DNA of 40,033 nt from Subtercola sp. (GTDB lineage: Bacteria > Actinomycetota > Actinomycetes > Actinomycetales > Microbacteriaceae): positions 1-40,033 of the forward strand of contig JAODBB010000189.1 of assembly GCA_025463745.1 (NCBI GenBank). Reading direction: 5' to 3'. Under the pieces are notes generated by a model. It was given only the letters and a program-made list of their open reading frames with translations, had not been told where the DNA came from and ran no database searches. A program made the translations under genes and the position numbers. Positions 11,950 through 40,033 of this stretch are shown here, in pieces (the first letter of the stretch is position 1; the number at the start of each line of letters is the position of its first letter).

Positions 11950-11953
11950 ATCA

Positions 11954-25060: not shown

Positions 25061-26407
25061 TCAGCGTTCGTCACCCACGGTTCTGGTGGCCGCGACAGCG
25101 TACGCCAGAGTCGCGCGAGCGGCGGCGCCCTCGGCCCGGATGGTCGCTATGTCGCCGTTGACGAGCTGACCGTCGTGTACGACGAGCTCACCTCCGACCA
25201 GCACTGACGACACCGTGACTGTTGAGCCGGAATAGACCAGGTGATCTACGGCGCTCTCGCCCGTCCGAGCCGTGAATTGAGGTGCCCGAAAAACGGCGAT
25301 GTCGGCGATCATGCCGACCGCGATCGCTCCGAGTTCGCCTTCTCTGCCCAGAGCTCGCGCGCCATTGAGCGTGGCCATGTCGAACGCCTGTGAGGCTGGC
25401 ATCGCTTGAGGATCGCCGCTTGCACGATGAATGATCGAGGCGAGAAACAGCTCTCGCCTCGCATCGAGCGTGTTGTTGCAGGCCGCCCCGTCGGTTCCGA
25501 GGCCGACATTCACCCCGTGACCCCGCAGGCGTGGCACGTTGGCGATGCCCGAGCCGAGCTTGAGGTTCGCGGTCGGGCAATGGGCGACAGTCGTACCGGA
25601 GCCGGCCAGCAGAGTCACCTCCTCGTCTTCGAGCCAGACGCAGTGCGCGAGAACAGTGCGGGGGCCGAGAGCGCCCAGTTCAGAGAGCAGGAGCACATCG
25701 CGCGTGCCGTTCGCTTCGGAGACTTTGTCTGATTGCCCCCGGTTCTCGTTGACGTGCGTGTGGATCGTGAGGTCGTGTTGGCTCGCGAGAGCAACCGAGT
25801 CCGCCCACATCTGCGGGGTGGCGGCGCTGGGAGCTCGCGGCGAGACAGCAACCCGGATTCGATCGTCATAGCTCCCATGCCAGGTCTCGACCAGACGAAC
25901 GAGATCGGCCCACGCCGCCTCGGTCGACTCTCCGAGCAAGCGAGTGCCGGGCTCTTCTCTGTCCATGATCGCTTTGCCGATCGTGGCTCGGGCGCCGAGG
26001 TCGGCCGCTGCCTGGAAGGCCTGATCGGTGTGATGAGTGGTCTCCATGCTGAGAAAGGAGGTGGTTCCCGAAAGCAGCATCTCGGCTACGCCCCATCGTG
26101 CGGAAGCAGACATGGTGTCGGCGTCGAGCGCCTGTTCGAGCGGCCAGATCCATTGGTCGAGCCACGACATCACGTCGAGGTCTTCGGCGAGTCCGCTGAA
26201 CGCGGTCTGGCAGAGGTGCACGTGGGTCTGCACGACACCGGGGGTGACGATGCATCCGGTCGCGTCGATCTCGCGGGCGTCATCGGGCGCAGAGACGTCG
26301 GTGCCGACCGCGGTGATGAGCCCGTTCTCGACGAGAACATCGGCCTGCAGAGTGCCGAGCTCGCCCTGGGTGACGACGGTGGCATGACGAATGATGACTG
26401 ATTGCAC
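25061..26407 (-). CDS. Amidohydrolase: 5'-deoxyadenosine/S-adenosylhomocysteine deaminase-like (Atz/Trz subgroup)
   Basis: 448 residues from GTG 26407, with AGGAG six bases upstream; the longer frame to 26506 is an Arg-rich artefact. Metal-binding motif Q-T-H-V-H-L-C-Q-T is followed by G-L-A-E-D-L, I-W-P-L-E and M-E-T-T-H-H-T-D-Q-A-F, a pattern seen in DadD-type 5'-deoxyadenosine deaminases. Further metal and catalytic residues are T-H-V-N-E, L-A-H-C-V-W-L and G-L-G-T-D-G-A-A-C-N-N. The reaction would be deamination of an adenine nucleoside or related aminopurine to the oxo form. The gene begins the purine-type gene cluster and has a promoter with the CATTG-N5-CAATG operator, divergent from an aldo/keto reductase. 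Exact substrate is inferred. Confidence 0.82.
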   Translation of the reverse strand: MQSVIIRHATVVTQGELGTLQADVLVENGLITAVGTDVSAPDDAREIDATGCIVTPGVVQTHVHLCQTAFSGLAEDLDVMSWLDQWIWPLEQALDADTMSASARWGVAEMLLSGTTSFLSMETTHHTDQAFQAAADLGARATIGKAIMDREEPGTRLLGESTEAAWADLVRLVETWHGSYDDRIRVAVSPRAPSAATPQMWADSVALASQHDLTIHTHVNENRGQSDKVSEANGTRDVLLLSELGALGPRTVLAHCVWLEDEEVTLLAGSGTTVAHCPTANLKLGSGIANVPRLRGHGVNVGLGTDGAACNNTLDARRELFLASIIHRASGDPQAMPASQAFDMATLNGARALGREGELGAIAVGMIADIAVFRAPQFTARTGESAVDHLVYSGSTVTVSSVLVGGELVVHDGQLVNGDIATIRAEGAAARATLAYAVAATRTVGDER

Positions 26408-26537
26408 GGTGATCTCCTCTGAAAATTCTGCGCTGGTGCGACCGAACAAGCGGCTTCGCCGCCTGCCGGTGCTCGCGGGTGCGGCGAGACGGCCTCTGCG
26501 GCGCAACTCGGAGCCTCCACTGCCGCGTCTATGGCAT

Positions 26538-26644: not shown

Positions 26645-27664
26645 ATGGATTACACCACACTCGGCGCGCGAGGCCCTCGCGTCTCGCGCTTCGGACTCGG
26701 AACGATGACGATTCTGGGCGCGGGCGAGGCCGAGGCGCACACGCTGGTTCGGCACGCCATCGACGAAGGGCTCACGCTGATCGATACCGCCGATGTCTAC
26801 GGCGACGGGCGGGTCGAAGAGGTTCTCGGTGCCGCGTTGAAGGGCCGACGAGACACTGTCGTGCTCGCAACCAAGTTCGGGTTGCCGATGCAGGGCGACA
26901 CCACGCGCGCGGGAGGGTCGAGGGGCTGGATGATCCGGGCCGTCGACGACAGCCTGCGCCGCTTGCGAACCGACTACATCGATCTCTATCAGCTGCACCG
27001 GCCCGACCCGGCGACGCCCATCGATGAGACCGTCGCCGCTTTCGATGAGCTCATCACTGCGGGAAAGGTCCGCTTCGCAGGCTCGTCGGTGTTCTCTGCC
27101 GAGCAGATCGTCGAGAGCCAATGGGCTGCGGAGCGCATCGGCGCACGACCCTTCGCAACGGAGCAGTCGCCCTACTCGATCTTCGTGCGCGGCGGCGAAC
27201 GCGCCACATTCTCGACCTGCCGCGCTCACCGGGTGGGTGTCATCGCCTGGAGCCCTCTGAACGGCGGCTGGCTCACGGGCAAGTACCGCGTCGGGCAGGA
27301 GGTTCCTGCCGATTCCCGTGCTGCCTCGGGAAACCCGTTCGTCAGAGCAGACGATGAGACCAAGCTCGCGCTCGTCGATCGGCTCAGTGCCGTCGCCGCC
27401 GACGCCGGCCTGACGCTCACTCAGCTGGGGCTGGCCTTCACTCTGGCGCATCCGGCGATCTCAGCGACCCTCGTCGGGCCGCGCACCGATGCCCAATTGA
27501 CCGAGCTTCTTGCAGCCGTCGACGTTCAGTTGTCAACCGCAACACTCGACCAGGTCGATGCCATCGTCGCGCCGGGCGTCGACGTCGACCCGCGAAATGC
27601 GGGCACGACTCCCCGCGGACTCCTGGTCGGCGAACGGCGTCGGCCCGAGCTGATCGGCGGATGA
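26645..27664 (+). CDS. Aldo/keto reductase
   Basis: 339 residues from ATG 26645 (the longer start at 26597 adds a Pro/His-rich unconserved stretch). The catalytic tetrad is complete: Asp47 and Tyr52 in L-I-D-T-A-D-V-Y-G, Lys77 in A-T-K-F-G, and His118 in Y-Q-L-H-R-P-D. The C-terminal G-V-I-A-W-S-P-L-N-G-G-W-L-T-G-K is also typical. It probably reduces an aldehyde or ketone with NADPH. It is divergent from the nucleoside deaminase gene and convergent with the gntR gene, so a role in the same pathway (for instance removal of an aldehyde product) is plausible but unproven. Its stop lies inside an 11-bp duplication (TGATCGGCGGA). Confidence 0.9.
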   Translation: MDYTTLGARGPRVSRFGLGTMTILGAGEAEAHTLVRHAIDEGLTLIDTADVYGDGRVEEVLGAALKGRRDTVVLATKFGLPMQGDTTRAGGSRGWMIRAVDDSLRRLRTDYIDLYQLHRPDPATPIDETVAAFDELITAGKVRFAGSSVFSAEQIVESQWAAERIGARPFATEQSPYSIFVRGGERATFSTCRAHRVGVIAWSPLNGGWLTGKYRVGQEVPADSRAASGNPFVRADDETKLALVDRLSAVAADAGLTLTQLGLAFTLAHPAISATLVGPRTDAQLTELLAAVDVQLSTATLDQVDAIVAPGVDVDPRNAGTTPRGLLVGERRRPELIGG

Positions 27665-27723
27665 TCGGCGGCGCTCGAGGTCACTGACGAGGCCTCAGCG
27701 CAACTTCGTCGGCGTAGCTCTGA

Positions 27724-27748
27724 AGGGCGGCCTCTTTCGGCCGGCCCT
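27724..27748. terminator. Bidirectional hairpin terminator between convergent AKR and gntR genes
   Basis: AGGGC-GGCC pairs with GGCC-(g)-GCCCT around a TCTTTC loop, a 9-bp stem with one bulged base. It lies 60 bases past the aldo/keto reductase stop and overlaps the last codon of the gntR gene, so it could end transcription from both sides. Confidence 0.55.
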
Positions 27749-28568
27749 AAAGCGCGTCGAGCGTGAGCGAATCGGCACCCGAGGGGTTTTCGCCCACCGC
27801 GAGCACGACCGAGTCGAGCCGGATCAGGTACTTGGCGAGGAACACGGGTTTGCCTTGCCTGCTCAACACCGTCGTCAGGCTGGTCTGGTGGCCGCGGGGA
27901 ACCAGATTGAACCCCGTGCGCGAGCCTGATGACGACCCAGGCGCCAACCGCCACAACGTCGGGATGCACTTGGATCGGAATTGCGGCCCGAGTGCAGCGA
28001 GCAGAGTCTGGCCGACCCCCTCGGGTTCGGCGGAGTGGTCGGCCAGATGCACCGGGATGTTCCCCTCGGCGGCGGGCACCAGTTCGATCGCCGAGGCGAC
28101 GGGCTCATCGCCGAGGTAGAACAGACTCTCGCGGCAGAGCAGCATCTTGTCGCTGTCGCCCAACTCGAGCAGCACCCGGCTCCAGTTGGTGATGGCTACC
28201 GGCTCGGTTCGAATGATCTCTACGCGCAGCGGAGCGGTCGCCTGAAGCATGTCTTCCAGTGGGGCGTTGAACGTCGGCGGCCGCGACGAGGGCTTCGCCA
28301 GTTGTCGGCGCCGGGGGTCTGCGCCGCGTTCGATCACGCCGTCTTCTTCGAGCAGGCGCAGTGCCTCGCGCAACACGGTTCTGCTCACGCCGAGGTCGGC
28401 CGAGAGTTCTACCTCCGGCGGAATGCTGTCGCCGACACGACCATACTTCAGCAGTGCCTCGACCAGCCTGTCGTAGACCTGAACAGAGAGCGGTCGACGA
28501 TCACGCACCGGTTTCATTGTGGGGAGAGAGTCGCCTGTCACTGGGCCCTTCTCGTCTTCAGCACTCAT
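27747..28568 (-). CDS. GntR-family regulator with UTRA ligand domain (HutC subfamily)
   Basis: 273 residues from ATG 28568. The winged helix covers about residues 26-95 with the GntR core I-P-P-E-V-E-L-S-A-D-L-G-V-S-R-T-V-L-R-E-A-L, though split by a slightly unusual G-R-V-G-D-S. A UTRA-like domain runs from about 105 to 265, where ligands of HutC-type regulators bind. Its gene is divergent from the PfkB operon, and the palindrome CATTG-N5-CAATG stands in that operon's promoter and in the deaminase promoter, so this protein is the best candidate for the regulator of the nucleoside cluster. The inducer is probably a nucleoside, base or phosphorylated intermediate (inference). Confidence 0.85.
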   Translation of the reverse strand: MSAEDEKGPVTGDSLPTMKPVRDRRPLSVQVYDRLVEALLKYGRVGDSIPPEVELSADLGVSRTVLREALRLLEEDGVIERGADPRRRQLAKPSSRPPTFNAPLEDMLQATAPLRVEIIRTEPVAITNWSRVLLELGDSDKMLLCRESLFYLGDEPVASAIELVPAAEGNIPVHLADHSAEPEGVGQTLLAALGPQFRSKCIPTLWRLAPGSSSGSRTGFNLVPRGHQTSLTTVLSRQGKPVFLAKYLIRLDSVVLAVGENPSGADSLTLDAL

Positions 28569-28645
28569 TGTCTAACGCGCCGGGGTGGGGAGCTCGTGTC
28601 GATCAGATTACCAATGTAACGGCCGTGTAAACAAACACGTCTCAG

Positions 28646-28674
28646 TTCGGTGCATTGCTAAACAATGAACAATG
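28646..28674 (+). promoter_or_regulatory. Promoter of the kinase/LOG-like/BMP-transporter operon with GntR-type operator in the spacer
   Basis: TTCGGT (28646-28651), a 17-bp spacer and ACAATG (28669-28674). The spacer carries CATTG-CTAAA-CAATG (28653-28667). Architecture and palindrome match the deaminase promoter. A second inverted repeat, CGTGT-AAACAA-ACACG (28624-28639), lies just upstream, towards gntR. Confidence 0.6.
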
Positions 28675-28727
28675 ATGGAAAACATGTTCCACGATTTCTC
28701 CTTCATCACCGGTCAGGCGGGTACGCG

Positions 28728-29747
28728 ATGAGCGCCGTTCTCGCCATCGTAGGCGCTCTGAGCATCGACAGCATCGTGGCTCAAGACGGTCGCCATGTCT
28801 TGGGCAAGGTCGGCGGAAATGCTGTGTGGTCTTCGCTCGGCGCGACCATCTCGGGCAACGCTCCGCGCATTCTGTCGATGGTCGGAACCGACTACCCGGC
28901 ACATGTTCTCGAAACGCTTTCTGCGGCGGGCGTCGATACGACGGCTGTCGTGCAGCTCGAACGCGAGCATCCGGTTCGGGTCACCTTCGCGCATCTGCCC
29001 GACGGCGGGCGGATTCAGCCCGTGCCGACGGAGATGATCGCGGGGCTGCCGGCGGCGGCTCAGGCCGAATTCATCGACACCACGAAGACACCCGAGATTC
29101 TGCGTCTCGGCTCGCCCGAAGGCCACGACATTCCCGAGTCGTGGCTCGACGAGGTGGACTTCTGGCACCTTCCCCTCCTGCCGCTCGTGCGGCACCGCAG
29201 CGTGGTCGAGCGGCTCGCTCGGGCGCGCGGAAGGCTGCACACCGATTGCCCCGCCCGCTCCGACCTGATCGGCGACCCCTTCGGGCGGCTGTCTCCGACG
29301 CTTCCGTCGATCACGGTCTTTCTGCCGAGCACCTCGGATTTCGACGTGATCGCGCCAGACCAGTCGACCAGCGACAGCGTCGCCGAGCTCCGTGCGGCAG
29401 GCTCGCGGGAGCTCATCGTCAAGGCCGGCGGCTCGGGATCGTTCGTTCTCGACGGTGACTCGGTGTGGCATGTGCCGGCCTTCTCTGACCTGCCGATCGA
29501 TCCGACCGGTGCCGGCGACACCTTCTGCGGAGGATTTCTGGTGGGCATGGCGTCGACCGGCGATCTGGTCGAGGCTGCGGCGCTCGGCTCTGCCGCGGCG
29601 TCGTTCGCCGTCGCCACAGAGAACCCGCTGACGCTCATCGATATCGAGCCCGAACGCACCCTCGCTCGGGCTCGGTCGATTCTCGGCAAGACCACACGAC
29701 TCTCCGGCTCCATCGACGACTATGAACGGGCTGTATTCTCATGCTGA
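28728..29747 (+). CDS. PfkB-family carbohydrate/nucleoside kinase
   Basis: 339 residues from ATG 28728; the upstream ATG at 28665 lies in the promoter. Motifs are G-K-V-G-G-N-A-V-W-S-S-L-G-A (substrate-side GG signature) and D-P-T-G-A-G-D-T-F-C-G-G-F with the catalytic Asp (PfkB signature 2). The family phosphorylates a sugar or nucleoside hydroxyl at C5' or C1. Here the next gene, overlapping by seven bases, encodes a LOG-like protein, and a nucleoside importer follows. That combination suggests nucleoside-5'-phosphate formation followed by base release, which is inference. The region around residues 180-200 is not closely like ribokinase. Confidence 0.88.
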   Translation: MSAVLAIVGALSIDSIVAQDGRHVLGKVGGNAVWSSLGATISGNAPRILSMVGTDYPAHVLETLSAAGVDTTAVVQLEREHPVRVTFAHLPDGGRIQPVPTEMIAGLPAAAQAEFIDTTKTPEILRLGSPEGHDIPESWLDEVDFWHLPLLPLVRHRSVVERLARARGRLHTDCPARSDLIGDPFGRLSPTLPSITVFLPSTSDFDVIAPDQSTSDSVAELRAAGSRELIVKAGGSGSFVLDGDSVWHVPAFSDLPIDPTGAGDTFCGGFLVGMASTGDLVEAAALGSAAASFAVATENPLTLIDIEPERTLARARSILGKTTRLSGSIDDYERAVFSC

Positions 29748-30313
29748 AAATCGGAGTGATCGGGCGCAGTTGGCGCGAGGGCGAAACCCTGCCGCCCCAC
29801 GTTCTCGACACCGCGTACGCCGTGGGCAAAGGAATCGCCGAGGCTGGTGCCGTTCTGGTCACCGGCGGCACCGGCGGTGTGATGGAGGCTTCGAGCCGCG
29901 GCGCGTTCGAGGCCGGCGGCCTCAGCATTGGTTTTCTGCCCTACGCCGACACCGAAAAGGCGAATCCGTTCGTCACCATCGCCTTCCCCACGGGCATGGG
30001 CACCATCCGCAACATCCTCACTGCCCGGTGCTGCGACAGCCTGGTCATGATCGGCGGCGGTGTGGGCACACTGAACGAAGTGACTATCGCTTACGACTCA
30101 GGCGTGCCCGTCGTCGTCGTCGAGGGCAGCACCGGCTGGGCCGATCGGCTGCGCTCGTCTATCGACGAAGGAATCTGGATGGACGACCGCCACGTCGTTC
30201 CGCTGAGCTATGCTGCCGACCCTGCCACGGCAGTGGCGGCGGCACTAGAACGAGCGCTCGAGCCTCGACAGGGGTCGAAGCTCAGCGCCTACACCGGTTG
30301 GGCGGGCCAATGA
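29741..30313 (+). CDS. TIGR00725/LOG-like protein (possible nucleotide phosphoribohydrolase)
   Basis: 190 residues, ATG 29741 overlapping the kinase end by seven bases. It has the Rossmann-like fold signature of the LOG/lysine-decarboxylase-like superfamily: L-V-T-G-G-T-G-G-V-M-E-A at 40-50, M-G-T-I-R-N at 86-91, and I-G-G-G-V-G-T-L-N-E at 104-113, the equivalent of PGGxGTxxE. LOG and PpnN members hydrolyse the N-glycosidic bond of nucleoside 5'-monophosphates, giving a base and ribose-5-phosphate. TIGR00725 relatives have no settled function, and G-G-G-V differs from P-G-G-x, so activity is not certain. The position between a kinase and a nucleoside importer makes such a role worth considering. 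Confidence 0.8.
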   Translation: MLKIGVIGRSWREGETLPPHVLDTAYAVGKGIAEAGAVLVTGGTGGVMEASSRGAFEAGGLSIGFLPYADTEKANPFVTIAFPTGMGTIRNILTARCCDSLVMIGGGVGTLNEVTIAYDSGVPVVVVEGSTGWADRLRSSIDEGIWMDDRHVVPLSYAADPATAVAAALERALEPRQGSKLSAYTGWAGQ

Positions 30314-30434
30314 TCCGCTCGCACCGATGGAGCACCACAAGCACCACCGGCACCACGAACACCGGTGCGCTGCATCCGCGGCACATCGTTCTGTAACTGC
30401 ACTCCCTTCACACACCCGCAAACAAGGAGTTCTC

Positions 30435-31514
30435 GTGATCACGAAACGCACCCTCGCTCGTAACGCCAAGAAAGTCGCCACTCTCACCCTCAGCATCGCT
30501 GCAGTCGCCGGCCTCGCTGCCTGCTCCTCCGGCGGCGCATCAGCCGCTTCCACCGCGGCAGCAGGCGCCCCCGTCTGGGCCATGGTCACCGACCAGGCCG
30601 GCTTGGGCGACAAGGGCTTCAATGACCTGGCCAAGGCAGGCATCGATGACAGCGTCACCAAGCTCGGCGGTACCGAGCAGATTCTGCAGTCGACCGACCA
30701 GTCGCAATACGTGACCAATCTGCAGCAGGCGGTGACCGGCGGCGCGACCGTCACAACCGGCGTCGGATTCCTGCTGACAGATGCCATGGTGCAGATCGCC
30801 CAGGCAAACCCGAATGCGAAGTTCACCCTGATCGACTCGATCGCAGCCGACAGTGCCGGCAACCCGGTGCCGAACGTGGCCAGCATCACGTTCAAGGAGC
30901 AGGAAGCCTCGTTTCTCGCGGGAATCGTGGCCGGCCTCACCACGAAGACGAACAACATCGGGTTCGTCGGCGGTATCGAGATTCCCTCGGTCGACCGGTT
31001 CTACTCGGGGTTCGCTGCCGGCATCCAGGAGGTCAATCCTTCGGCCAAAGTGACGGCAGCGTATGTCGGTGACTTCGCCGACTCCGCGAAGGCCAAAGAA
31101 CTTGCGACCGGCTTCTACGACCAGGGTGCCGACATCGTGATGGATGTCGCGGGCGCCGCTGGTCTCGGAACGTTCGACGCCGCCAAGAGCCTCGGTGCCA
31201 ACCACTGGGTGGTGAGCACCGACACCTGCAAGGAGTCGCTGGCACCCGACAACTTCCTCACCTCCGCCGTGAAAGACGTGCAGGGCTCCGTGCTCAATGA
31301 GAACACCGCTGCTGCGAACGGAACGTTCAAGGGCGGTTCGACCGTGCTCGGTCTCGCAGACAACGGGGTCGGTCTCTGCCAAGACAACATCTCGACCATC
31401 CCGTCGTCGATCATGACCAAGGTCACCGCGGCAACGGCGGCGATCAAGGCCGGCACACTCGTGCCGCCGGCGACTCCCGACGAACTGAAGACGTTCAAAC
31501 CCGGCACCCTGTGA
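30435..31514 (+). CDS. BMP-family (BmpA/Med-like) nucleoside-binding lipoprotein of an ABC importer
   Basis: 359 residues from GTG 30435 with AAGGAG just upstream. The lipobox is G-L-A-A-C, giving an acylated Cys30 after a typical signal. The mature protein shows BMP-family patterns: D-Q-A-G-L-G-D-K-G-F-N-D-L-A near the N-terminus, F-K-E-Q-E-A-S-F-L-A-G-I, G-F-V-G-G-I-E-I-P-S-V-D-R-F and D-V-A-G-A-A-G. BMP-family lipoproteins usually bind purine nucleosides or related compounds. ATPase and two permease genes follow directly, so this is the binding component. The 121 bases before it contain a small hairpin and no palindrome of the GntR type. Confidence 0.9.
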   Translation: MITKRTLARNAKKVATLTLSIAAVAGLAACSSGGASAASTAAAGAPVWAMVTDQAGLGDKGFNDLAKAGIDDSVTKLGGTEQILQSTDQSQYVTNLQQAVTGGATVTTGVGFLLTDAMVQIAQANPNAKFTLIDSIAADSAGNPVPNVASITFKEQEASFLAGIVAGLTTKTNNIGFVGGIEIPSVDRFYSGFAAGIQEVNPSAKVTAAYVGDFADSAKAKELATGFYDQGADIVMDVAGAAGLGTFDAAKSLGANHWVVSTDTCKESLAPDNFLTSAVKDVQGSVLNENTAAANGTFKGGSTVLGLADNGVGLCQDNISTIPSSIMTKVTAATAAIKAGTLVPPATPDELKTFKPGTL

Positions 31515-31559
31515 AACTCGCAGGCTGACTCCCACTGATTGACCAACAGAGAGCATCCC

Positions 31560-33113
31560 ATGAGATCTGCTGCGGTTCGACTCGTCGACATCTCCAAGAG
31601 CTACGGCGATGTGTGGGCGAACAAAGACATCTCGCTCACCGTCGAAGAAGCATCGATTCACGGACTGCTCGGCGAGAACGGCGCCGGGAAGTCGACGCTG
31701 ATGAAAATTCTGTTCGGCATGGTGAGCCCCGATTCCGGTCTGCTCGAGGTCAACGGTCAGCCGGCGGCGTTTCGGTCGTCGGCTGACGCCCTCGAACACG
31801 GAATCGGCATGGTTCAGCAGCACTTCAGTCTGATCGGCACTTTCACCGTGGCAGAGAACCTCATTCTGGGCCGGGGATCGCAGAGCTTCGGCGGTCGATG
31901 GGTGAAAAGGCTCGATCTCAAGGCAGCCGCGCAGCGTACCCGCGAGCTCTCTGATCGCTTCGGTTTCGGTATCGATCCGTTCGCGCTCTGCCACGACCTC
32001 TCGGTGGGAGCCCGGCAGAAGGTCGAAATTCTGAAGGCACTCTGGGGCGGTGCGACGACTCTCGTTCTCGACGAGCCGACAGCGGCCCTTTCACCGCCAG
32101 AAGCCGAAGAACTCTACGAGGTGCTCGAGCGTTTGCGGCGTGAGGGCACCACGGTCATCCTGATCAGCCACAAGCTGCCCGAGGTGATGAGGCTCTGCGA
32201 CCGGGTGACGGTCTTGCGTGACGGTGCCGTGGTCGGAGACCGTGAGATCGCCCTCGCCGCTCGCCGGCCAGGTGGGCAGCGCGCCGCGATGGAAGCCGAT
32301 CTGGTGCAGCTGATGATCGGCCGAGAGCGACCGGTGGTTTCGCAGCGTGCGCCGCGCGACCTGCCGCCGGTGCTCTCGATTCGCGAGCTCAGCGATGGCA
32401 AGCGCATCGACGGGCTTGATCTCACGGTCAATGGCGGCGAGATCCTCGCCATCGTCGGGGTCGAGGGCAACGGCCAGAGCGAACTTGTCGAGCTCTTGAT
32501 CGGGCAGCGCAAGCGCATCTCGGGCGCGGTCGAGCTCGACGGTACCGATATCACCGCTCTCTCTACGAAACAACGCTTCGACAAAGGTCTCGCGCACATC
32601 GCCGAAGATCGTCATGCGTCGGCCATCGCCGATTCGATGTCGCTCACCGACAACGCGAGCTTCGGATTCATCGACGGTGCACCTTTCGCGCCCACTCCGT
32701 TCTGGCTCTCCCGCCGGCTGCGCTCGCGCTTCGCTGCCCTCTTGGTCGCCCGTCAAAACGTGCGGGCCTCCTCCCCCGACGCGCTCATCGAGTCGCTCTC
32801 GGGCGGAAATCAGCAGAAACTCGTGGTTGCGCGCGAGCTGGCCAGGGCACCTCGCCTGATGATCGCCGCCCAGCCCACCCGAGGCCTCGACATCGCGTCG
32901 ACCACAGCCGTGCATGAGGCGCTGCTCGCCTTGCGAGACCGAGGCTCGGCCGTTCTGCTGCTCAGTCTTGATCTCACCGAAGTCTTCACGGTCGCCGATC
33001 GTATCGCTGTGATTCGCGGCGGAAGAATCGTGGGCGAGTCGCCGATCGCCACCGCCGATGCCACGCAGATCGGCCAGTGGATGTCGGGCGCGGCCAGCAA
33101 GGAGCCGGTATGA
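31560..33113 (+). CDS. ABC transporter ATPase with two nucleotide-binding domains (nucleoside importer)
   Basis: 517 residues from ATG 31560 (a TTG start at 31539 is possible). The N-terminal domain has G-E-N-G-A-G-K-S-T (Walker A), L-S-V-G-A-R-Q-K-V (degenerate signature) and L-V-L-D-E-P-T-A-A-L-S. The C-terminal domain has G-V-E-G-N-G-Q-S-E in place of Walker A, with the Lys and Ser/Thr replaced, then L-S-G-G-N-Q-Q-K and a weak Walker B (L-M-I-A-A-Q-P-T-R-G-L-D). A duplicated ATPase with a degenerate second site is typical of ATPases that serve BMP-type nucleoside transporters (RbsA-like/BmpB class). Its stop overlaps the start of the first permease. Confidence 0.93.
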   Translation: MRSAAVRLVDISKSYGDVWANKDISLTVEEASIHGLLGENGAGKSTLMKILFGMVSPDSGLLEVNGQPAAFRSSADALEHGIGMVQQHFSLIGTFTVAENLILGRGSQSFGGRWVKRLDLKAAAQRTRELSDRFGFGIDPFALCHDLSVGARQKVEILKALWGGATTLVLDEPTAALSPPEAEELYEVLERLRREGTTVILISHKLPEVMRLCDRVTVLRDGAVVGDREIALAARRPGGQRAAMEADLVQLMIGRERPVVSQRAPRDLPPVLSIRELSDGKRIDGLDLTVNGGEILAIVGVEGNGQSELVELLIGQRKRISGAVELDGTDITALSTKQRFDKGLAHIAEDRHASAIADSMSLTDNASFGFIDGAPFAPTPFWLSRRLRSRFAALLVARQNVRASSPDALIESLSGGNQQKLVVARELARAPRLMIAAQPTRGLDIASTTAVHEALLALRDRGSAVLLLSLDLTEVFTVADRIAVIRGGRIVGESPIATADATQIGQWMSGAASKEPV

Positions 33114-34390
33114 CCAGCACACAGTCTCCACCGCGCCGTTCGCGTCTCGACAACGAACTGCGTGCGCAACTCGCCGTTCCCTCGCGGCTCTCGGCCGGCG
33201 GTCGTGGCGGCACCGGCTTCGGCACCTTCCTCGCCTCCCTCGGCGGCACGTCGAGATCTGTCACGGCCAAGATCGTGTCGTTCGCCGTCACGATCGCGGT
33301 CGCTCTCATAGCGGCTCTGCCGATCGTCTACCTGTCGGGGTCCAACGCGCAGGTCGCCCTTCAGGCCCTCATCGGGGGCAGTTGGGGCAGCCCGCAGGCG
33401 GTCGCAGAGACCTTTGTGCAGACCATCCCGCTGCTGATCACCGGCCTCGCCGTGGCGCTGGCCTTTCACGGCGGCATCTTCAACATCGGCGTAGAAGGTC
33501 AGCTCATCATCGGCGCTCTCGCCGCAGGAATCGTCGGCGCGACGCAGCATCTGCCCGGGTCGCTCCTGCTGCTCGCGTCTCTCGCCAGCGGAATGATCGC
33601 GGGAGCCCTCTGGGCCCTCATTCCGGCGTTGCTCAAGGCCTATCGCGGCGTGCACGAAGTGGTGACGACCATCATGATGAACTACATCGCGATCAACATC
33701 TCGACGTTCGCGGTGACCACTGGCGGGCCGTTCGCGGCGAAGACACAGCCTTCTGCAACCGAGAAGGTGCCTCTGGATGCCCAGCTCCCCGTGATCACGC
33801 CAGGCACCCGCCTCCACGCCGGCCTGTTCATCGCCATCGCGGTCATCGTCATCTTGATGTGGGTGCTCTATCGAACACCCGCCGGATTCCGGCTGCGGTT
33901 GATGGGCGCCAACCCCCAGGCCGCCGCCGCTACCGGAATCTCGCTGCCGCGCACCATGATCACGGCGATGCTGGGCTCGGGCGCGATCGCCGGCCTCGCC
34001 GGGGCGGTGCAGGTTCTCGGTGTCTACGGGCGATACTTCGACGGTTTCTCGCCGGGGTACGGCTACAGCGCTATCGCTGTGGCGCTTCTCGGCGCCCTCT
34101 CACCCGTCGGCATCGCGGCCGCGGCCTTGTTCTTCGGCACGCTCGATGCGGGGGCCGTGCAGCTGCAGGCGGTGGCCGGCATCAGCCGCGAAATGGTGAG
34201 CGTGGTGTCGGGGCTCGTCGTCGCCTTCGTCGCTGCCCAACCGGCCATCTTCCGGCTTCTGCACCATCTGCAACGAACGGTTCTGGCGGGTCGAACCGCG
34301 CGACGTGCGGCTGCGCCCGTCTTGCCGCCCCCGATCAACGGCGACAACGACCTCATCTCGGCCGGCCTCGACAACAAGGAAGTGCTCTGA
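33110..34390 (+). CDS. ABC transporter permease 1 (nucleoside/BMP type)
   Basis: 426 residues from ATG 33110, overlapping the ATPase stop by ATGA. The N-terminal ~55 residues are polar and basic, followed by about eight to ten hydrophobic segments. The pattern F-H-G-G-I-F-N-I-G-V-E-G-Q-L, K-A-Y-R-G-V-H-E-V-V-T-T-I-M-M-N-Y-I-A and G-S-G-A-I-A-G-L-A-G is typical of the permease that pairs with BMP-type binding proteins. The C-terminal tail is Ala/Arg-rich. Its stop (TGA) overlaps the start of the second permease. Confidence 0.93.
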   Translation: MTSTQSPPRRSRLDNELRAQLAVPSRLSAGGRGGTGFGTFLASLGGTSRSVTAKIVSFAVTIAVALIAALPIVYLSGSNAQVALQALIGGSWGSPQAVAETFVQTIPLLITGLAVALAFHGGIFNIGVEGQLIIGALAAGIVGATQHLPGSLLLLASLASGMIAGALWALIPALLKAYRGVHEVVTTIMMNYIAINISTFAVTTGGPFAAKTQPSATEKVPLDAQLPVITPGTRLHAGLFIAIAVIVILMWVLYRTPAGFRLRLMGANPQAAAATGISLPRTMITAMLGSGAIAGLAGAVQVLGVYGRYFDGFSPGYGYSAIAVALLGALSPVGIAAAALFFGTLDAGAVQLQAVAGISREMVSVVSGLVVAFVAAQPAIFRLLHHLQRTVLAGRTARRAAAPVLPPPINGDNDLISAGLDNKEVL

Positions 34391-35310
34391 TGGATATTCT
34401 GACCATCTCGCTCGTCATCAGTGCCATCCACCTCGGTGTGCCGATCATCCTGCCGATGCTCGGCGGCCTGGTGAGCGAGCGCAGCGGCGTCATGAACATC
34501 GGGCTCGAAGGCATGATGCTCGGGGGAGCGCTCGCTGCCGTGGCGGTGACGTTCATCACCGGCAATCCGTGGCTCGGCCTGCTCGGAGCGATCGTCTCCG
34601 GTCTGCTCTCCGGGCTGATTCTGGCGATTCTCACCGTGACGTTGCGCGGTAATCAGGTCGTCGCATCCACCGCGATCAACCTGATCGGCGCCGGCATCAC
34701 TGCGGCGCTCGTGCCCATCATCTGGGGCGTCGACGGCACCTCGCCGAGCGTGCCGAAGATTCCGTCGATGACGATTCCCGGCCTCTCCGATCTGCCCGTG
34801 GTCGGCCCGCTGTTCTCGAGTCTCACGGCGATGGACTACGGAACGTTCGTGCTCGCCATCGTCGTGTGGTGGGTTCTGTTCCGCACCGACGCAGGTCTGC
34901 GCATCCGCGCCGTCGGCGAGTCGGCCGAGTCGGCAGACGCCGCAGGCATCGCGGTGGTTCGAACGCGATTCATCGCGGTCATGACCTCGGGGGCGTTCGC
35001 GGCGCTGGGTGGGGCTTACCTCTCGATCGTCACGCTCGATGTCTTTCAAGCGTCGATGACCCAGGGCCGCGGGTATCTCGCCCTCGCCGCCCTCGTGTTC
35101 GGCAAGTGGCGGGTGTGGCCCGCCCTGGCGGCGTGTATCGTCTTCGGGCTGGCCGACGCCTTCGCCCTGCGCTCGCAGATCGTGGGCATCGGCATTCCAC
35201 ACGAACTGCTGCTCGCACTGCCGTATGTTCTCGCCCTGGTCGCGCTCGCGACGTTCGTCGGGCGAACTTCTGCCCCGGCGGGTGTGGGAAAGCCTTTCGT
35301 CAGGGCTTGA
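34390..35310 (+). CDS. ABC transporter permease 2 (nucleoside/BMP type)
   Basis: 306 residues from ATG 34390, one base inside the stop of permease 1. A far longer open frame (from 33058) continues upstream in this frame but is only a GC-rich shadow; the protein family starts here. The sequence G-L-V-S-E-R-S-G-V-M-N-I-G-L-E-G-M-M-L, followed by G-N-Q-V-V-A-S-T-A-I-N-L and A-F-A-A-L-G-G-A-Y-L-S-I, is typical of the second BMP-family permease. The C-terminal codons lie in a 15-bp tandem repeat shared with the convergent deaminase gene. Confidence 0.93.
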   Translation: MDILTISLVISAIHLGVPIILPMLGGLVSERSGVMNIGLEGMMLGGALAAVAVTFITGNPWLGLLGAIVSGLLSGLILAILTVTLRGNQVVASTAINLIGAGITAALVPIIWGVDGTSPSVPKIPSMTIPGLSDLPVVGPLFSSLTAMDYGTFVLAIVVWWVLFRTDAGLRIRAVGESAESADAAGIAVVRTRFIAVMTSGAFAALGGAYLSIVTLDVFQASMTQGRGYLALAALVFGKWRVWPALAACIVFGLADAFALRSQIVGIGIPHELLLALPYVLALVALATFVGRTSAPAGVGKPFVRA

Positions 35311-35345
35311 TCCCTCAAGGCTTGATCCCTCAGGGCTTGATCCAC
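35301..35345. repeat. 15-bp tandem repeat, 3 copies, carrying stop codons of two convergent genes
   Basis: Unit CAGGGCTTGATCCCT, with CAAGGCTTGATCCCT and CAGGGCTTGATCCAC. Copy 1 holds the stop of permease 2 (35308-35310). The stop of the deaminase on the opposite strand begins at 35332 in copy 3. The same bases therefore encode the end of both genes. Confidence 0.9.
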
Positions 35346-36313
35346 TCGGCGATCTTGCCCAGGGCGTTCTGCTTCAGGTCGGCTGGGGCGCCGGATGCCC
35401 GAACCGAGTCGGTCGCGATGGTGGCGAGCTGAGCATCCGAAACCCCGAGCACGTCTCGAGCCAACTCGTATTCGCTCAGGATGGTGCAGTCGAACATCAC
35501 CGGATTGTCGGCGTTCATGCTCACCGGAACACCGGCTGCAAGCAGCACCGGCAGAGGATGAACGTCGAAGCTCGCCACCGATTTCAAGACGATGTTCGAT
35601 GTCGGGCACACATCGAGGCACGTGCCGGTCTCGCGCAGGCGCTCCATGAGCGCTTCGTCTTCCGATGCTCTGATGCCGTGCTGAATGCGGTCGGCATGCA
35701 GCACGTCAATGCACGCTGCCACGCTGTCGGGCCCGGCCAGCTCGCCTCCGTGCGGGGTGAGAATCAGCCCCGCTTCGCGTGCGACATCGAAGGCCCCGGC
35801 GAACGGTTCGGGCGGGAACCTGCTCTCGTCGTTGTGAAGGCCGAAGGCGACCACGCCGCGGCCGGCCCAGCGCGCGGCGATGCGCGCCTGCTCGATTGCT
35901 TTGTTCGGCGGATCATTGCGGTTCGAGGCGATCAAGAATCCGATGCCCACGCCGGTGGCCTCGGTCGCCTGGCGCGCGGCGTCGACCAGAATCTCGAGCG
36001 TCTCTTCGTCTGGCCCGATGTGCGTGCGGTGCAGCGGAAGCCATACGGCGGGTTCGATCCACACGCACCCCTGTGCGGCGGCGTCTTCGGCGATCTCGTG
36101 CACCATGCGCTGCAGGTGGGCCGGCGTTCGCATCACTTCGGCGGCGCCCTGGGCCAGGTGGTCGAACTCTATGAAGGTCGTGAATCCGCTCATGCGTGGA
36201 GTGGGGCGCCCGAGTTCGCGCGCGAATTCGTCAAGCGTGCCCTGCCGAATGCCCTCCTCGAAATGCAGGTGCAGGTGCGCTTTGGGCAGGCCGGTGAGAT
36301 CGCGCTGGAGCAT
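35330..36313 (-). CDS. Adenosine/adenine deaminase family protein
   Basis: 327 residues from ATG 36313. The family start L-P-K-A-H-L-H-L-H-F-E carries the metal ligands; further metal and catalytic groups are P-H-G-G-E-L (metal/Glu), H-G-I near residue 215, C-P-T-S-N and M-N-A-D-N-P-V-M-F. The last motif has Asn where many members have Asp-Asp (N-x-D-D-P), a variant I recall from actinobacterial deaminases, so loss of function need not follow. It probably deaminates adenosine, adenine or an N6-substituted analogue in the cytoplasm. It is on the same strand as the MarR gene 82 bases upstream, so the two may be co-transcribed, linking purine deamination to the Rieske operon. Confidence 0.88.
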   Translation of the reverse strand: MLQRDLTGLPKAHLHLHFEEGIRQGTLDEFARELGRPTPRMSGFTTFIEFDHLAQGAAEVMRTPAHLQRMVHEIAEDAAAQGCVWIEPAVWLPLHRTHIGPDEETLEILVDAARQATEATGVGIGFLIASNRNDPPNKAIEQARIAARWAGRGVVAFGLHNDESRFPPEPFAGAFDVAREAGLILTPHGGELAGPDSVAACIDVLHADRIQHGIRASEDEALMERLRETGTCLDVCPTSNIVLKSVASFDVHPLPVLLAAGVPVSMNADNPVMFDCTILSEYELARDVLGVSDAQLATIATDSVRASGAPADLKQNALGKIAEWIKP

Positions 36314-36395
36314 GCGGTGCCGTCTTTCGGTAGAGGTACGGGAGAGGGGCAGGTCGGTAAAGGGGGTGTGGCCCGGGCCTGGAGGGGTGCCGGAT

Positions 36396-37013
36396 TCAGT
36401 AGCGCCGCTCTCGCGCCTCGCCTGTCACAGTGCGGCCGGCGAGCACTCGGAGCATGTCGAGAAGGGCCTCGGGGTCAGGAACCTCGTTGAAGAATCTCGA
36501 GTCGGCCTCGTCGAGGGCCGCGACCGCCCGCTCGGCCAGATGCTGGCCCTGGTCTGTGACGCTGAGTGCCATGGCGCGAACGTCGGTCGCACTGGTCTGG
36601 CGCAGGATCATTCCATTGCGTTCGAGCAGACGCAAGACCTGCGACGCCATCACCTCCCCGATACCAGCGTGCTCCGCCACCTGTCGTTGATTGGGCAGCT
36701 CCCCGCCCCGGCCGAGATACCACGTGGTGCTCAACAGAGCGAATTGCGCATGCGTCAAGTTGAACGGTTCGAGAACGGCGTCGGTCTGACGCTGCCACCT
36801 CAGGGTGGTGTGCCACAACATGTAACCGAGGCTGTTGCCGGCGGAATGCTTGCGAATTGCGTCGTGGAGCCGGTCTTCTGCCTGCTGGTCGGTGGCGGGC
36901 GTCGCTGTGCTGTGATCTGTCGGTGCTGCTGGAATGATCCGCCCCGCCCTTCGATGGCAATAGTAAACGCATTCAGCATATCGAAACACGGCTGTAATAG
37001 TCGGCTCGTACAC
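36396..37013 (-). CDS. MarR-family regulator divergent from the Rieske operon
   Basis: 205 residues if started at GTG 37013; another GTG in the same frame (36989) is possible, and the first 50 residues are not MarR-like. The MarR winged helix covers about residues 60-180: L-W-H-T-T-L-R-W-Q-R, then T-H-A-Q-F-A-L-L-S-T-T-W-Y-L, the L-P-N-Q-R-Q-V-A-E-H-A-G recognition helix, and the D-V-R wing with L-T/S-V-T-D-Q-G. It stands opposite the three Rieske-type genes, with two palindromes in the 60 bases between, so it probably represses them until an aromatic or purine-type ligand binds. The deaminase gene follows on the same strand. Confidence 0.88.
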   Translation of the reverse strand: MYEPTITAVFRYAECVYYCHRRAGRIIPAAPTDHSTATPATDQQAEDRLHDAIRKHSAGNSLGYMLWHTTLRWQRQTDAVLEPFNLTHAQFALLSTTWYLGRGGELPNQRQVAEHAGIGEVMASQVLRLLERNGMILRQTSATDVRAMALSVTDQGQHLAERAVAALDEADSRFFNEVPDPEALLDMLRVLAGRTVTGEARERRY

Positions 37014-37017
37014 TCCA

Positions 37018-37057
37018 TACTAAAGGCACGTAGTATTCACATGCTAAAGGTGTTTAG
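37018..37057. promoter_or_regulatory. Two palindromes in the MarR/Rieske intergenic region
   Basis: TACTA-N8-TAGTA (37018-37035) and CTAAA-GGTG-TTTAG (37044-37057) are both inverted repeats, and the segments CTAAAGG-N4-5-TAGT are also direct repeats of each other. They lie between GTG of marR (37013) and ATG of the first Rieske-type gene (37074), a typical setting for MarR binding. GAGGAG (37063-37068) is the ribosome site of the Rieske gene. Confidence 0.6.
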
Positions 37058-37073
37058 TGGGTGAGGAGTTCAG

Positions 37074-37997
37074 ATGATGCAGCCCGGCGAAGACATACTT
37101 CTCGATAACGACGACGCGCGGCTGAGGCGGGCGTGGCATCCGGTTGCTCGCTCGGTCGACGTCACGTCGACTCCGCTCGCCGTACACCTCAACGGCGACG
37201 AATACACCCTGGTGCGCCACGGCGACGTTGCACGCGCAGGGCACGGGCTCGAAGACGCGCCGTTCTCTGCGATCGAGGTCATCGGAGACGTGACCTGGGG
37301 GCTGCAAGAGGTCTACGGCCTGGTCTGGATCGCTCAAGAACGACCCGTCGCCGAGCTGCCGCCGATTCTCGAATGGTTCGATCAGGGCTACCATTCGGGA
37401 GTTCTGACCCGTTCGACCGTGGCTTCTGCCGGCGTGCTGATCGACAATTTTCTCGACGTCACCCATTTCTCCTATCTGCATCGACAGTCGTTCGGGCGTT
37501 CTCGGCCCGTCACTGACGACGGGTACGCCATCGCCACGACAGACGGCCGAGTGCAGCTCACTCACGACACGGTGTTGCAAGAAGGCCGACGCAACTCAGC
37601 GGGCGGCCTCGGCCAGCGCCGCATCGCCACCTATACCTATTGGCCCCCGTACATCACCCACCTCCAGATGGTCTTTCCTGAAGATGGGGCGCAAGCGGCG
37701 GCCACCCTCATCTGCCAACCCGAATCGAAGCACTCGACCAAGGCCTACGTGCTCGTGCTGTTGCCGCTCTCCGACCCCGACCTCGACGACCAGATCAACT
37801 TCTCCGATCGGGTGCTGAGCGAAGATCTGGTCATCATCGACAAGATGGCGGATGCCCGGCTCATGCTCTCGTGGAAGTCGGAACTGCACACGCGCGCCGA
37901 CCGCGCGAGCATCGAGATGCGCCGCAGTCTCTCGAAGTTTCTCGACCTCTGCGAGGCGGCCCAGTCTGCTGTCGACCAGAAGGAGGTCTTGGTATGA
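37074..37997 (+). CDS. Rieske-oxygenase-type catalytic subunit lacking the Rieske cluster
   Basis: 307 residues from ATG 37074 with GAGGAG upstream. The N-terminus (L-R-R-A-W-H-P-V-A-R-S) and the strands after it match the start of VanA/PaO-type oxygenases. The ~60 residues that should hold C-x-H and C-x2-H are absent: after V-R-H-G-D-V the sequence passes directly to the post-cluster strands and L-V-W-I-A-Q-E. The catalytic domain is intact: D-N-F-L-D128-V-T-H131-F-S-Y-L-H136, the facial triad with a later R-A-D-R-A-S-I-E-M-R-R Asp. It needs electrons from a Rieske cluster on another protein. The next gene overlaps by ATGA and encodes one. Known precedent: NdmC of caffeine degradation lacks its Rieske domain. 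Confidence 0.88.
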   Translation: MMQPGEDILLDNDDARLRRAWHPVARSVDVTSTPLAVHLNGDEYTLVRHGDVARAGHGLEDAPFSAIEVIGDVTWGLQEVYGLVWIAQERPVAELPPILEWFDQGYHSGVLTRSTVASAGVLIDNFLDVTHFSYLHRQSFGRSRPVTDDGYAIATTDGRVQLTHDTVLQEGRRNSAGGLGQRRIATYTYWPPYITHLQMVFPEDGAQAAATLICQPESKHSTKAYVLVLLPLSDPDLDDQINFSDRVLSEDLVIIDKMADARLMLSWKSELHTRADRASIEMRRSLSKFLDLCEAAQSAVDQKEVLV

Positions 37998-38713
37998 CCG
38001 ACTCGATCGTTCGCCGCTCCGGCGACCGCGCCCAGCAGGTGGCGCTGATGGACTGGAATTCGCCGGCTCATTGGTGGCCGCTCGCCCTGGAATCCGAACT
38101 CGCCGACGCGGGCCGCAAGCCGATTGCCGTCACCCTGCATTCCATCCCCTGGGCGCTGGTCACGCTCGACGGTGAGATCGCTGCTCTGAAAGACCTGTGT
38201 CCGCACCGGCGAGTACCTCTTTCCGCCGGGGTCGTCGCCGACAGTGCTGCTGGCGAGGTGCTCGAGTGCGGGTACCACGGCTGGGCGTTCGATCGTTCCG
38301 GGGCCTGCGCGGTCATCCCTGCACTGGGCGAAGGCCGCGCGCCGCGCGGGATGGGCGGCACTCCGACGATCTCGCTGATGCTGCACGAGGGTCTGGTGTG
38401 GGGTTCGGCCGACGAGTCTGCCGACCGTTCATCCATTCTCAGGTCGATGAGCTCTTCGGGTGTTCTTCTTCGGGCCCAGGTGGTGATGCAGCCGGCGGCG
38501 GATGTCGCATGGCTGCTCGCGGGGGAGCAGGCGGGGCCCGGCGCTGTGCTGAGACTCGCCCACTCCTCCGAACTGACCTTCGCGATTCGGCCCGAAACCG
38601 AGTTCAGCTGTGTGGTCTTTCCGATCGTTCCTTCTGAATCGTTCGAGTCGGGCATGCAGACCTGGGTGCAGACCTTGGCCGCACTCGAGTCGGCAGTGGC
38701 CCTGCCGCTCTGA
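37994..38713 (+). CDS. Rieske-cluster protein with an eroded oxygenase domain
   Basis: 239 residues from ATG 37994, overlapping the catalytic-subunit stop; AGGAGG lies seven bases before it. The Rieske ligands are complete: C69-P-H71-R-R-V-P-L-S and C92-G-Y-H95-G-W. The C-terminal ~110 residues look like the remains of an oxygenase domain. The segment P-A-A-D170-V-A-W-L-L-A-G-E aligns with D-x2-H-x4-H but has Trp173 and Glu178 at the two histidine positions, so the mononuclear iron site is lost. It is best seen as the electron-transfer partner of the preceding gene product in a mixed trimer or hexamer. A longer upstream frame exists but the overlap start has the ribosome site. Confidence 0.88.
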   Translation: MTDSIVRRSGDRAQQVALMDWNSPAHWWPLALESELADAGRKPIAVTLHSIPWALVTLDGEIAALKDLCPHRRVPLSAGVVADSAAGEVLECGYHGWAFDRSGACAVIPALGEGRAPRGMGGTPTISLMLHEGLVWGSADESADRSSILRSMSSSGVLLRAQVVMQPAADVAWLLAGEQAGPGAVLRLAHSSELTFAIRPETEFSCVVFPIVPSESFESGMQTWVQTLAALESAVALPL

Positions 38714-38794
38714 CGCACCGCATTACTTCTTTTTCTCCCTACTTCTCTACCTCTTTCACCCTCATAGTTCACCTCCTCACGAAAGGCTCCGCCG

Positions 38795-39862
38795 ATGCTC
38801 GTCAGTCAAGTGCCCGCCCTCAAGGAATATTGGTATCCCGTCGCCTACACGGCAGATGTCGCCAAAACCCCCGTGCCCGTCAGGCTGCTCGGTGACAACT
38901 ACGTCATCTGGCGCGGCCGCAAGGGCCTGATCGGCGCTGCACTCGACGAGTGCCCGCACCGCGGCTCGCGGCTTTCGCAGGGCTGGATCGAGAACGGCGA
39001 TCTCGTCTGCGGCTACCACGGCTGGTCGTTCGACACCAACGGTGCGTGCACGCGCATTCCGCAGAACGACGAAGACAAGCCGATTCCACCGCGTGCGCGT
39101 GCTCTCGCTGTGCTCATCGAGGAGCGGTACGGAATGGTATGGATCTGCCCGGGTATGCCACGGGCATCCGTTCCCGAACTGCCAGAGGCCGAAGACCCGG
39201 CGTTCGTCGTGCTGCACGAAATCATGGAGGTGTGGAACGCGTCGGCCCCCCGTGTCATCGACAATGCGCTCGACGTGTCGCATCTCTCGTGGACCCACCG
39301 CAACACCATCGGCGACTCTTCGGCGCCGAAGATGCAGAACATGGTGGTCGAACGCGACGGGCACAGCCTGAAATCGCGCGTCAGTTACCAGTCGAAAGTG
39401 ACCGAGGCGCTGCGCAAGAGCACGGGCATCCAGACTGATTTCACGACGCGCACGACGAACTCCGAGCTGATTCAGCCGTTCGTCTTTCGCGATGTCATGG
39501 AATACGAGAACGGTCTGCGGCACGTTCTGATGAAGGTGGCGACGCCCATCGACGACTCGCACACGCTCTTCACCCAATTCATTGCGCGAAACGACGACCC
39601 AGACGACGAGCAGAGGGCGGGCATCGTGGCGCTCGACCGTCTCATCCAGAGCGAAGACCGTGCCCTGCTCGAGCAGATTCGCCCCGAGTTTCCGCTCGAG
39701 GTGCAGACCGAGATGCACACGAGAACCGATCGGATGACCGTGGAATACCGTCGCATTCTGGCCGAGCTCTCGAGCGAGAGTTCGATGGTACCGCCCGACC
39801 GTGTATGGGCCACGCCCTTCTTGCAGGCCGCCCGCGCAGAGGCGTCGGCGACGGCACAGTAA
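38795..39862 (+). CDS. Complete Rieske non-heme iron oxygenase, alpha subunit (VanA/PaO-like)
   Basis: 355 residues from ATG 38795. Both centres are present: C53-P-H55-R-G-S-R-L-S and C72-G-Y-H75-G-W for the [2Fe-2S] cluster, and D-N-A-L-D160-V-S-H163-L-S-W-T-H168 for the mononuclear iron with R-T-D-R-M-T-V-E-Y-R-R near the C-terminus. No separate beta-subunit gene is visible, as is usual for demethylase-type members. It probably works with the reductase gene that follows and may hydroxylate or N/O-demethylate an aromatic or purine-type substrate; the real substrate is unknown. The 81-base gap before it is pyrimidine-rich, and the stop codon is inside a 14-bp tandem repeat. Confidence 0.92.
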   Translation: MLVSQVPALKEYWYPVAYTADVAKTPVPVRLLGDNYVIWRGRKGLIGAALDECPHRGSRLSQGWIENGDLVCGYHGWSFDTNGACTRIPQNDEDKPIPPRARALAVLIEERYGMVWICPGMPRASVPELPEAEDPAFVVLHEIMEVWNASAPRVIDNALDVSHLSWTHRNTIGDSSAPKMQNMVVERDGHSLKSRVSYQSKVTEALRKSTGIQTDFTTRTTNSELIQPFVFRDVMEYENGLRHVLMKVATPIDDSHTLFTQFIARNDDPDDEQRAGIVALDRLIQSEDRALLEQIRPEFPLEVQTEMHTRTDRMTVEYRRILAELSSESSMVPPDRVWATPFLQAARAEASATAQ

Positions 39863-39892: not shown

Positions 39893-40033
39893 ATGCTCGA
39901 AAAACTCGATTCTGCTCTCTTCGTCTCGGCGCGAACCCAGGAGGCCGATGGAATCATCTCCATCGAACTGCGCGACCCTCATGGTGCGGATCTGCCCGAG
40001 TGGCAGCCCGGCGCCCACATCGACGTCGAACTC
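39893..40033 (+). CDS. Flavin/ferredoxin oxidoreductase, VanB/phthalate-dioxygenase-reductase type (3' end outside window)
   Basis: Starts at ATG 39893 and runs off the right edge after 47 residues. The start L-F-V-S-A-R-T-Q-E-A-D-G-I-I-S-I-E-L-R-D-P and P-E-W-Q-P-G-A-H-I-D-V-E-L match the N-terminal flavin-binding barrel of VanB/PDR-type reductases, which carry FMN, NAD and a C-terminal plant-type [2Fe-2S] ferredoxin domain. It presumably delivers electrons to the Rieske proteins upstream. Only the first part is visible, so the later domains are assumed. Confidence 0.8.
   Translation, partial: MLEKLDSALFVSARTQEADGIISIELRDPHGADLPEWQPGAHIDVEL

Follow-up and report, generated by a model that had tools for sequence, protein, structure and literature searches.

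A stretch of 40,033 nucleotides from Subtercola sp. (positions 1-40033 of its contig, hereafter the window; draft genome of 253 contigs, 86% completeness) contained two overlapping genes, A and B, each apparently coding for a part of a Rieske oxygenase. Normal Rieske oxygenases hold both metal sites on each chain, and the iron receives its electrons from the cluster of an adjacent chain. Genes A and B were followed on the same strand by a complete oxygenase gene, C, and by the start of a presumed reductase gene:

37074..37997, + strand: gene A, iron-only Rieske-oxygenase alpha-type subunit of 307 amino acids (aa), cluster lobe deleted (Pfam, motifs, alignment)
37994..38713, + strand: gene B, Rieske-only alpha-derived subunit of 239 aa, most of the catalytic domain missing (Pfam, motifs)
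38795..39862, + strand: gene C, complete Rieske oxygenase of 355 aa (Rieske and VanA_C), of another subfamily than A and B (Pfam, trees)
39894..40033, + strand: presumed reductase, start only (46 codons), cut by the contig end, without an NCBIfam match of its own

An earlier note on this DNA had described a complete oxygenase and a reductase behind the pair. Gene C was complete, with both Pfam domains; the reductase was present only as its first 46 codons. A complete Fer2-containing reductase-like gene stood behind C in the corresponding loci of Herbiconiux (L012) and Microbacterium (L025).

Metal sites of A and B

Protein A carried the iron-site motif D128-x2-H131-x4-H136 and D251. Its sole Pfam match above the cut-off was VanA_C (E 1.3e-20), with no Rieske domain; its only cysteines were residues 214 and 293, none preceding residue 214, and the cluster lobe was missing in the alignment against six complete relatives. 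Protein B carried C69-x-H71 and C92-x2-H95, with Rieske as its sole Pfam match (E 1.1e-17), and the D-x2-H-x4-H motif was sought in its sequence and was absent. Neither protein had CxH...CxxH and DxxHxxxxH...D on one chain, and both belonged by descent to the oxygenase superfamily (A to VanA_C, B to Rieske, with alpha-type neighbours in the trees). The earlier note had read the two proteins in the same way, with an intact iron site and a deleted cluster motif in A, an intact cluster motif in B, and complementary losses. It had also aligned W173 and E178 of B with the iron-site histidines; this alignment was unsupported, as B had no significant alignment with complete oxygenases beyond about residue 143-150.

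A profile built from four A proteins aligned residues H131, H136 and D251 with H164, H169 and D280 of SxtDIOX (hand-counted positions). Residue D128 was invariant in 22 of 22 aligned rows, complete enzymes included, and occupies the position of the bridging carboxylate, the Asp of D-x2-H. The numbering H164/H169/D280 is that of the facial triad of SxtT and GxtA (PMC7293229). In CntA, the excerpt of PMC7948474 describes E205 as the bridging carboxylate between the cluster of one subunit and the iron of the next, at 12.2 A, and mutants made at the bridging residue as inactive. Protein A had thus retained a residue that in known enzymes takes up electrons from the cluster of another chain.

Few positions in the tail of B were invariant (5 of 96 columns); in the Rieske part the figure was 41 of 118. 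Near its C-terminus, B had a short stretch that weakly resembled the catalytic strand around QPE (P 0.02 and 0.14 in single comparisons of B tails with two catalytic alignments; P 1e-4 and 0.035 when NdmD tails were joined to the B tails), which hints, by sequence resemblance, at a remnant of the catalytic domain.

Conservation and rarity of the pair

Scanning the contigs of GTDB genomes gave eight loci, three of which were split pairs and the other five complete oxygenases. The split pairs were from Herbiconiux moechotypicola (L012), Microbacterium sp. 67-17 (L025) and the actinobacterial metagenome-assembled genome RYN_227. With the window included, A came first, B was adjacent and the genes overlapped by ATGA in all four pairs, so that the overlap reported by the earlier note was real and the conserved adjacency that it had proposed to look for was found. 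In each half, four metal-site residues were compared and proved invariant in 4/4 orthologous pairs, which makes chance an implausible explanation. Identity to A of the window was 67, 59 and 49% in the three other pairs, and identity to B was 46, 43 and 42%. Gene C was present in all four loci; in three it came directly after B, and in the remaining one it lay some 6.5 kb upstream of A.

The genomes searched further were a sample of each group. A true split A was found in 2 of 299 genomes of the family (a third match there was a complete oxygenase), in 1 of 12 genomes of its own genus, in 1 of 16 of the Herbiconiux genus, and in 1 of 267 of genus g85 (E 1e-30), the last being the Microbacterium already found. 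Among 396 genomes of the order, nine had a match (the genome of the window, three with a fused form, three with complete oxygenases and two with NdmC-type genes), and no further A/B pair was found. The class-wide profile search covered 394 genomes, of which 38 had a match, and 29 loci were examined besides that of the window. The phylum search (396 genomes) returned 12 other matching genomes, all with complete enzymes. At most six candidates were scored per genome in the class and phylum searches.

A single-chain form

Nine genomes coded for an intact N-terminal Rieske domain followed, on one chain, by an A-type cluster-less oxygenase domain (loci L015, L016, L017, L032, L045, L049, L055, L087 and L088; L015-L017 are among near-copies in this set). 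These fused loci came from the order search, the class-wide search and a third search within a single family, in which 3 of 85 genomes matched. The spacing from CxH to DxxH was 182-202 residues in the fused form, compared with 106-114 in 36 complete enzymes of the tree set. The order of the modules, Rieske and then A, was the reverse of the A-B gene order. Because the fused chain joins both modules, it provides Rosetta-stone evidence that A and B belong together.

A gene beginning like an amidohydrolase adjoined six of the seven fused loci fetched with flanks, and was cytosine deaminase-like in 3/3 scanned.

Descent of A and B

In the complete relative L033, A matched residues 32-79 and 139-369 and B matched residues 47-158; the stretches 47-79 and 139-158 were matched by both. 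These shared flanks of the cluster lobe indicate duplication with reciprocal loss, and gene fission was ruled out.

In the catalytic-domain tree (56 rows), A fell in a 35-row clade (support 98/98), and in the Rieske-domain tree (52 rows) B fell in a matching 35-row clade (97/98). On each domain this clade excluded C, HpxD, NdmC and NdmD. Supports in the concatenated tree (52 rows) were 100/99 for the 35-row clade, 100/100 for the split pair, 100/99 for the fused form and 100/100 for NdmC with NdmD (NdmCD). Three of the seven NdmC rows, those with an NdmD partner, were taken into the concatenated tree; none of the three trees included the long rows L008, L021 and L022 or the truncated L090. The NdmC and NdmD proteins of Pseudomonas putida CBB5 themselves were outside the trees.

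A grouping of B with C was rejected (approximately unbiased test, p-AU 0.0003), and with it a derivation of B from C. The best solved relatives of B were oxygenase alpha subunits (NdmB, E 1e-15), whereas the best ferredoxin reached E 9.9e-5. Protein B had 239 aa compared with 103-115 aa in solved dioxygenase ferredoxins, and its alignment with alpha subunits extended past the cluster into the strands that follow. A derivation of B from a ferredoxin was unsupported by the solved-structure matches (the trees contained no ferredoxin). The solved relatives, the L033 alignment and the Rieske tree all agreed with the earlier proposal that B evolved from an alpha subunit.

A single origin of the three cluster-less groups (split, fused and NdmCD) was rejected (p-AU 0.016 in the catalytic tree; 0.006 concatenated). 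The split pair together with NdmCD was borderline in the concatenated tree (p-AU 0.054) and had p-AU of 0.21 and 0.155 on the single domains; the split pair together with the fused form was not rejected (p-AU 0.18, concatenated). The groups submitted to the test were partly named after the trees had been seen. Sequence comparison thus favoured at least two origins of the cluster-less groups.

The split pair was sister to oxygenase-reductase fusions in L026 and L027 with support of just 91/61, and long branches met there. These fusions (L026, 7989-10544, and L027, 7824-10520; Paracidovorax and Acidithiobacillus) held a complete oxygenase of the A/B subfamily within a long chain; with this weak support, no complete enzyme in the trees was closer to the pair. 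Of the two chains, that of L026 was scanned and had flavodoxin, FAD and NAD domains; in both loci the gene adjoined an HpxD-related oxygenase.

Genes around the pair

Upstream of the pair the window held genes for a regulator, an importer and several enzymes:

36396..37013, - strand: MarR-type regulator, divergent from A, also in L012 and L025 (domain scan, sequence search)
35330..36313, - strand: adenosine deaminase-family enzyme (TIGR01430 above the cut-off), homologue in 3/3 other pair loci
34390..35310, + strand: second ATP-binding cassette (ABC) permease of a nucleoside-type importer, start codon not fixed, homologue in 3/3 other pair loci (sequence search)
33110..34390, + strand: ABC permease (BPD_transp_2), homologue in 3/3 other pair loci (domain scan)
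31563..33113, + strand: ABC ATPase with two ATP-binding stretches, homologue in 3/3 other pair loci (domain scan)
30327..31514, + strand: Bmp/PnrA-like substrate-binding protein, homologue in 3/3 other pair loci (domain scan)
29741..30313, + strand: SLOG cluster 4 / TIGR00725 family protein, homologue in L012 and L025 (domain scan)
28665..29747, + strand: PfkB-family kinase, homologue in L012 and L025 (domain scan)
25061..26506, - strand: amidohydrolase, best NCBIfam match 5'-deoxyadenosine deaminase (below the cut-off), homologue in L012

Eleven neighbours other than C were sought by sequence, and 11/11 were found in L012; the loci L024 and L025 were covered in part, and absences there mean little. 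An inverted repeat that could be a MarR operator was searched for upstream of A and none was found. Uricase genes occurred in three of the four genomes with the pair and not in Microbacterium, a distribution that fits purine catabolism without proving it. Cytokinin or methyladenine degradation was also considered as the pathway, and the literature search gave nothing usable for it among the papers listed.

Comparison with known systems

NdmC and NdmD, with the required GST (glutathione S-transferase)-like NdmE, form the 7-methylxanthine N7-demethylase of Pseudomonas putida CBB5 (PMC4408171). As in A/B, an iron-only alpha-type subunit is combined with a cluster on the partner protein, and A resembles NdmC in being an iron-only subunit without a Rieske motif. 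In contrast, the excerpt of PMC4408171 gives the Rieske domain of NdmD as the N-terminus of a reductase, whereas B is a separate protein with no fused flavin/Fer2 reductase, the reductase being separate too. No GST-like NdmE was found among the scanned genes of the window (25061 to 39862). In the homologues of NdmC and NdmD that were fetched, both proteins, by look, still began at the N-terminus in the manner of complete enzymes; in the trees they were on different branches from the split pair. The NdmC homologues of Sinorhizobium (L095, L091) stood beside a Bmp-type importer, like the pair loci.

In chlorophyllide a oxygenase of Micromonas pusilla (MpCAO), each chain reportedly holds one metal site (Kunugi et al., 2013). 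The excerpt of PMC9615114 places the enzyme on two chains, suggests a heterodimer and describes formation of chlorophyllide b in vitro with the foreign reductase VanB. MpCAO differs from A/B in belonging to eukaryotic chlorophyll b biosynthesis, and is likened to the pair here by description only. The parallel with NdmC/NdmD drawn in the earlier note held for the division of labour, but it missed this closer case (PMC9615114).

HpxD (Pantoea record) ranked with the best of the named relatives that A had in a plasmid collection (26%). Its gene was beside one for a PDR/VanB-family oxidoreductase and was annotated to purine catabolism; HpxD is the oxygenase of the molybdenum-independent xanthine hydroxylase described from Klebsiella. 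The closest solved structures by sequence were SxtT/SxtDIOX and NdmA/NdmB for A and C, and NdmB/NdmA for B. Unlike A and B, HpxD has both metal-site motifs, and the solved proteins both metal sites, on one chain.

Neither a free-standing bacterial pair nor the fused form was named in the literature searched (titles and starts of abstracts, mostly of open papers). A term search of a 2025 review (PMC12445004) returned no mention of NdmC or CAO.

Interpretation and alternatives

Genes A and B probably represent two halves of one Rieske oxygenase that was duplicated and reciprocally reduced and that works as a mixed oligomer in a purine or nucleoside pathway. An ancestral gene for a complete alpha subunit would have been duplicated, copy A losing the cluster lobe and copy B the catalytic domain, as their sequences suggest. 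The two proteins are probably translated together and would assemble head to tail like a normal alpha3 trimer, as A3B3 or similar, with the cluster of B taking the place of the lobe lost from A. By analogy with Rieske-oxygenase chemistry, the reductase would reduce the cluster on B, and the electron would cross the A-B interface via Asp128 to the iron at His131/His136/Asp251 of A, where O2 would be activated. The complex, its electron path and the iron and cluster content of A and B are thus predicted from the analysis. Gene C may code for a second, ordinary oxygenase of the same pathway, probably sharing the reductase. The importer, the adenosine deaminase-like enzyme, the amidohydrolase, the PfkB kinase and the SLOG protein, together with the relatives HpxD and NdmA/B/C, point to a purine or nucleoside pathway, and the pair probably acts on a purine or purine nucleoside, which may be, for example, N-demethylated or ring-hydroxylated. 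That such a split can function is indicated by the working precedents, NdmC with NdmD and the two-chain MpCAO.

Several points weigh against this interpretation. Protein B was less conserved than A (42-46% vs 49-67% identity), its tail was nearly without invariant positions, and the pair was rare and patchy across the sampled genomes. The fused clade may be of separate origin, and shows that the modules can cooperate more than that A and B do. The A-B complex, the cluster on B, the iron on A and their activity are predictions from sequence.

The constant company of C, mostly directly behind B, and the fact that Rieske ferredoxins are normal parts of three-component oxygenases would suit an arrangement in which A forms mixed trimers with C and is fed by the cluster of C, B being a Rieske ferredoxin that carries reductase electrons. 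This was judged unlikely, as A and C were in different catalytic clades and B and C in different Rieske clades, while A and B were in matching 35-row clades; the rejection of B with C and the alpha-subunit relatives of B also oppose it. Rather less probable still is that A serves as a pseudo-subunit with a structural or regulatory role, that B is an unrelated carrier of electrons, and that no oxygenase works through A. Cluster loss alone would suggest decay, and inactive alpha-like subunits are conceivable, but the three iron ligands and D128 were invariant in the four split A proteins and the 22 aligned rows, and in the fused clade a single chain contains the two modules. The draft state of the genome and the contig end into which the gene cluster runs could raise suspicion of decaying pseudogenes or misassembly; four genomes with the same open frames, overlap and ligand pattern make this very improbable, and pseudogene, frameshift or sequencing error was refuted for the pair.

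A further alternative concerns descent and is compatible with the proposed mechanism, namely that the pair is an actinobacterial NdmC/NdmD whose reductase part became detached. The same division of labour, the Bmp-type importers adjoining NdmC homologues and the p-AU values for a joint clade of the split pair with NdmCD, borderline when concatenated, are in its favour. It was nevertheless considered improbable, since the split pair lay inside a clade that excluded NdmCD, in the concatenated tree and on each domain, a single origin of the three cluster-less groups was rejected, and a separate NdmC/NdmD-type pair was present in actinobacterium G531.

With the pair read as two halves of one oxygenase, the splitting of a Rieske oxygenase has precedents, and the feature that appears to be new is that the bacterial pair is free-standing and is placed by the trees apart from NdmC/NdmD (with a borderline p-AU for a joint clade). 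Since electron transfer normally runs from subunit to subunit, a homotrimer that is duplicated would be predisposed to a ratchet of complementary losses. We give even chances to the generalization that duplication and reciprocal loss of metal centres repeatedly gives obligate two-part Rieske oxygenases through this homotrimer ratchet, at least twice in bacteria (A/B and NdmC/NdmD) and perhaps a third time (the single-chain form), besides algal CAO, with A/B as the first free-standing bacterial pair. A pair with one site per chain would allow inter-subunit transfer, cluster potential and iron chemistry to be studied separately without mutants. The pair would also illustrate the passage from a homo-oligomer to an obligate hetero-oligomer via duplication and complementary loss, with a single-chain relative for comparison. 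In annotation, A- and B-like proteins are easily filed as truncated dioxygenases.

Other NdmC-type loci

The NdmC-type gene of L090 (4672-5337) was shortened to 221 aa, with a transposase-looking gene downstream; no NdmD-type Rieske open reading frame was seen on this small contig, and the gene is apparently decayed. Rhizobial NdmC-type genes in L092 (4010-4879) and L093 (3965-4834) had no Rieske partner in their 4-kb flanks. The L093 gene was annotated between amidohydrolase and molybdopterin-hydroxylase genes, and L092 was similar by look.

An actinobacterial NdmC/NdmD-type pair (L089, 261-9064) was beside genes for uricase, HIU (5-hydroxyisourate) hydrolase, OHCU (2-oxo-4-hydroxy-4-carboxy-5-ureidoimidazoline) decarboxylase, a zinc alcohol dehydrogenase and a xanthine/uracil-type permease, and is possibly a cluster for methylpurine or methylurate demethylation. 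In S. medicae (L095) the NdmC homologue was accompanied by an annotated GST and the Bmp-type importer. The stretch fetched from S. meliloti pSymA (L091) held three NdmC-type iron-only genes and one NdmD-type gene (2856-3905, 9107-9997, 9998-10939 and 10970-12748; genes unlisted in the table used), which suggests, from sequence, that one Rieske-reductase serves several catalytic subunits.
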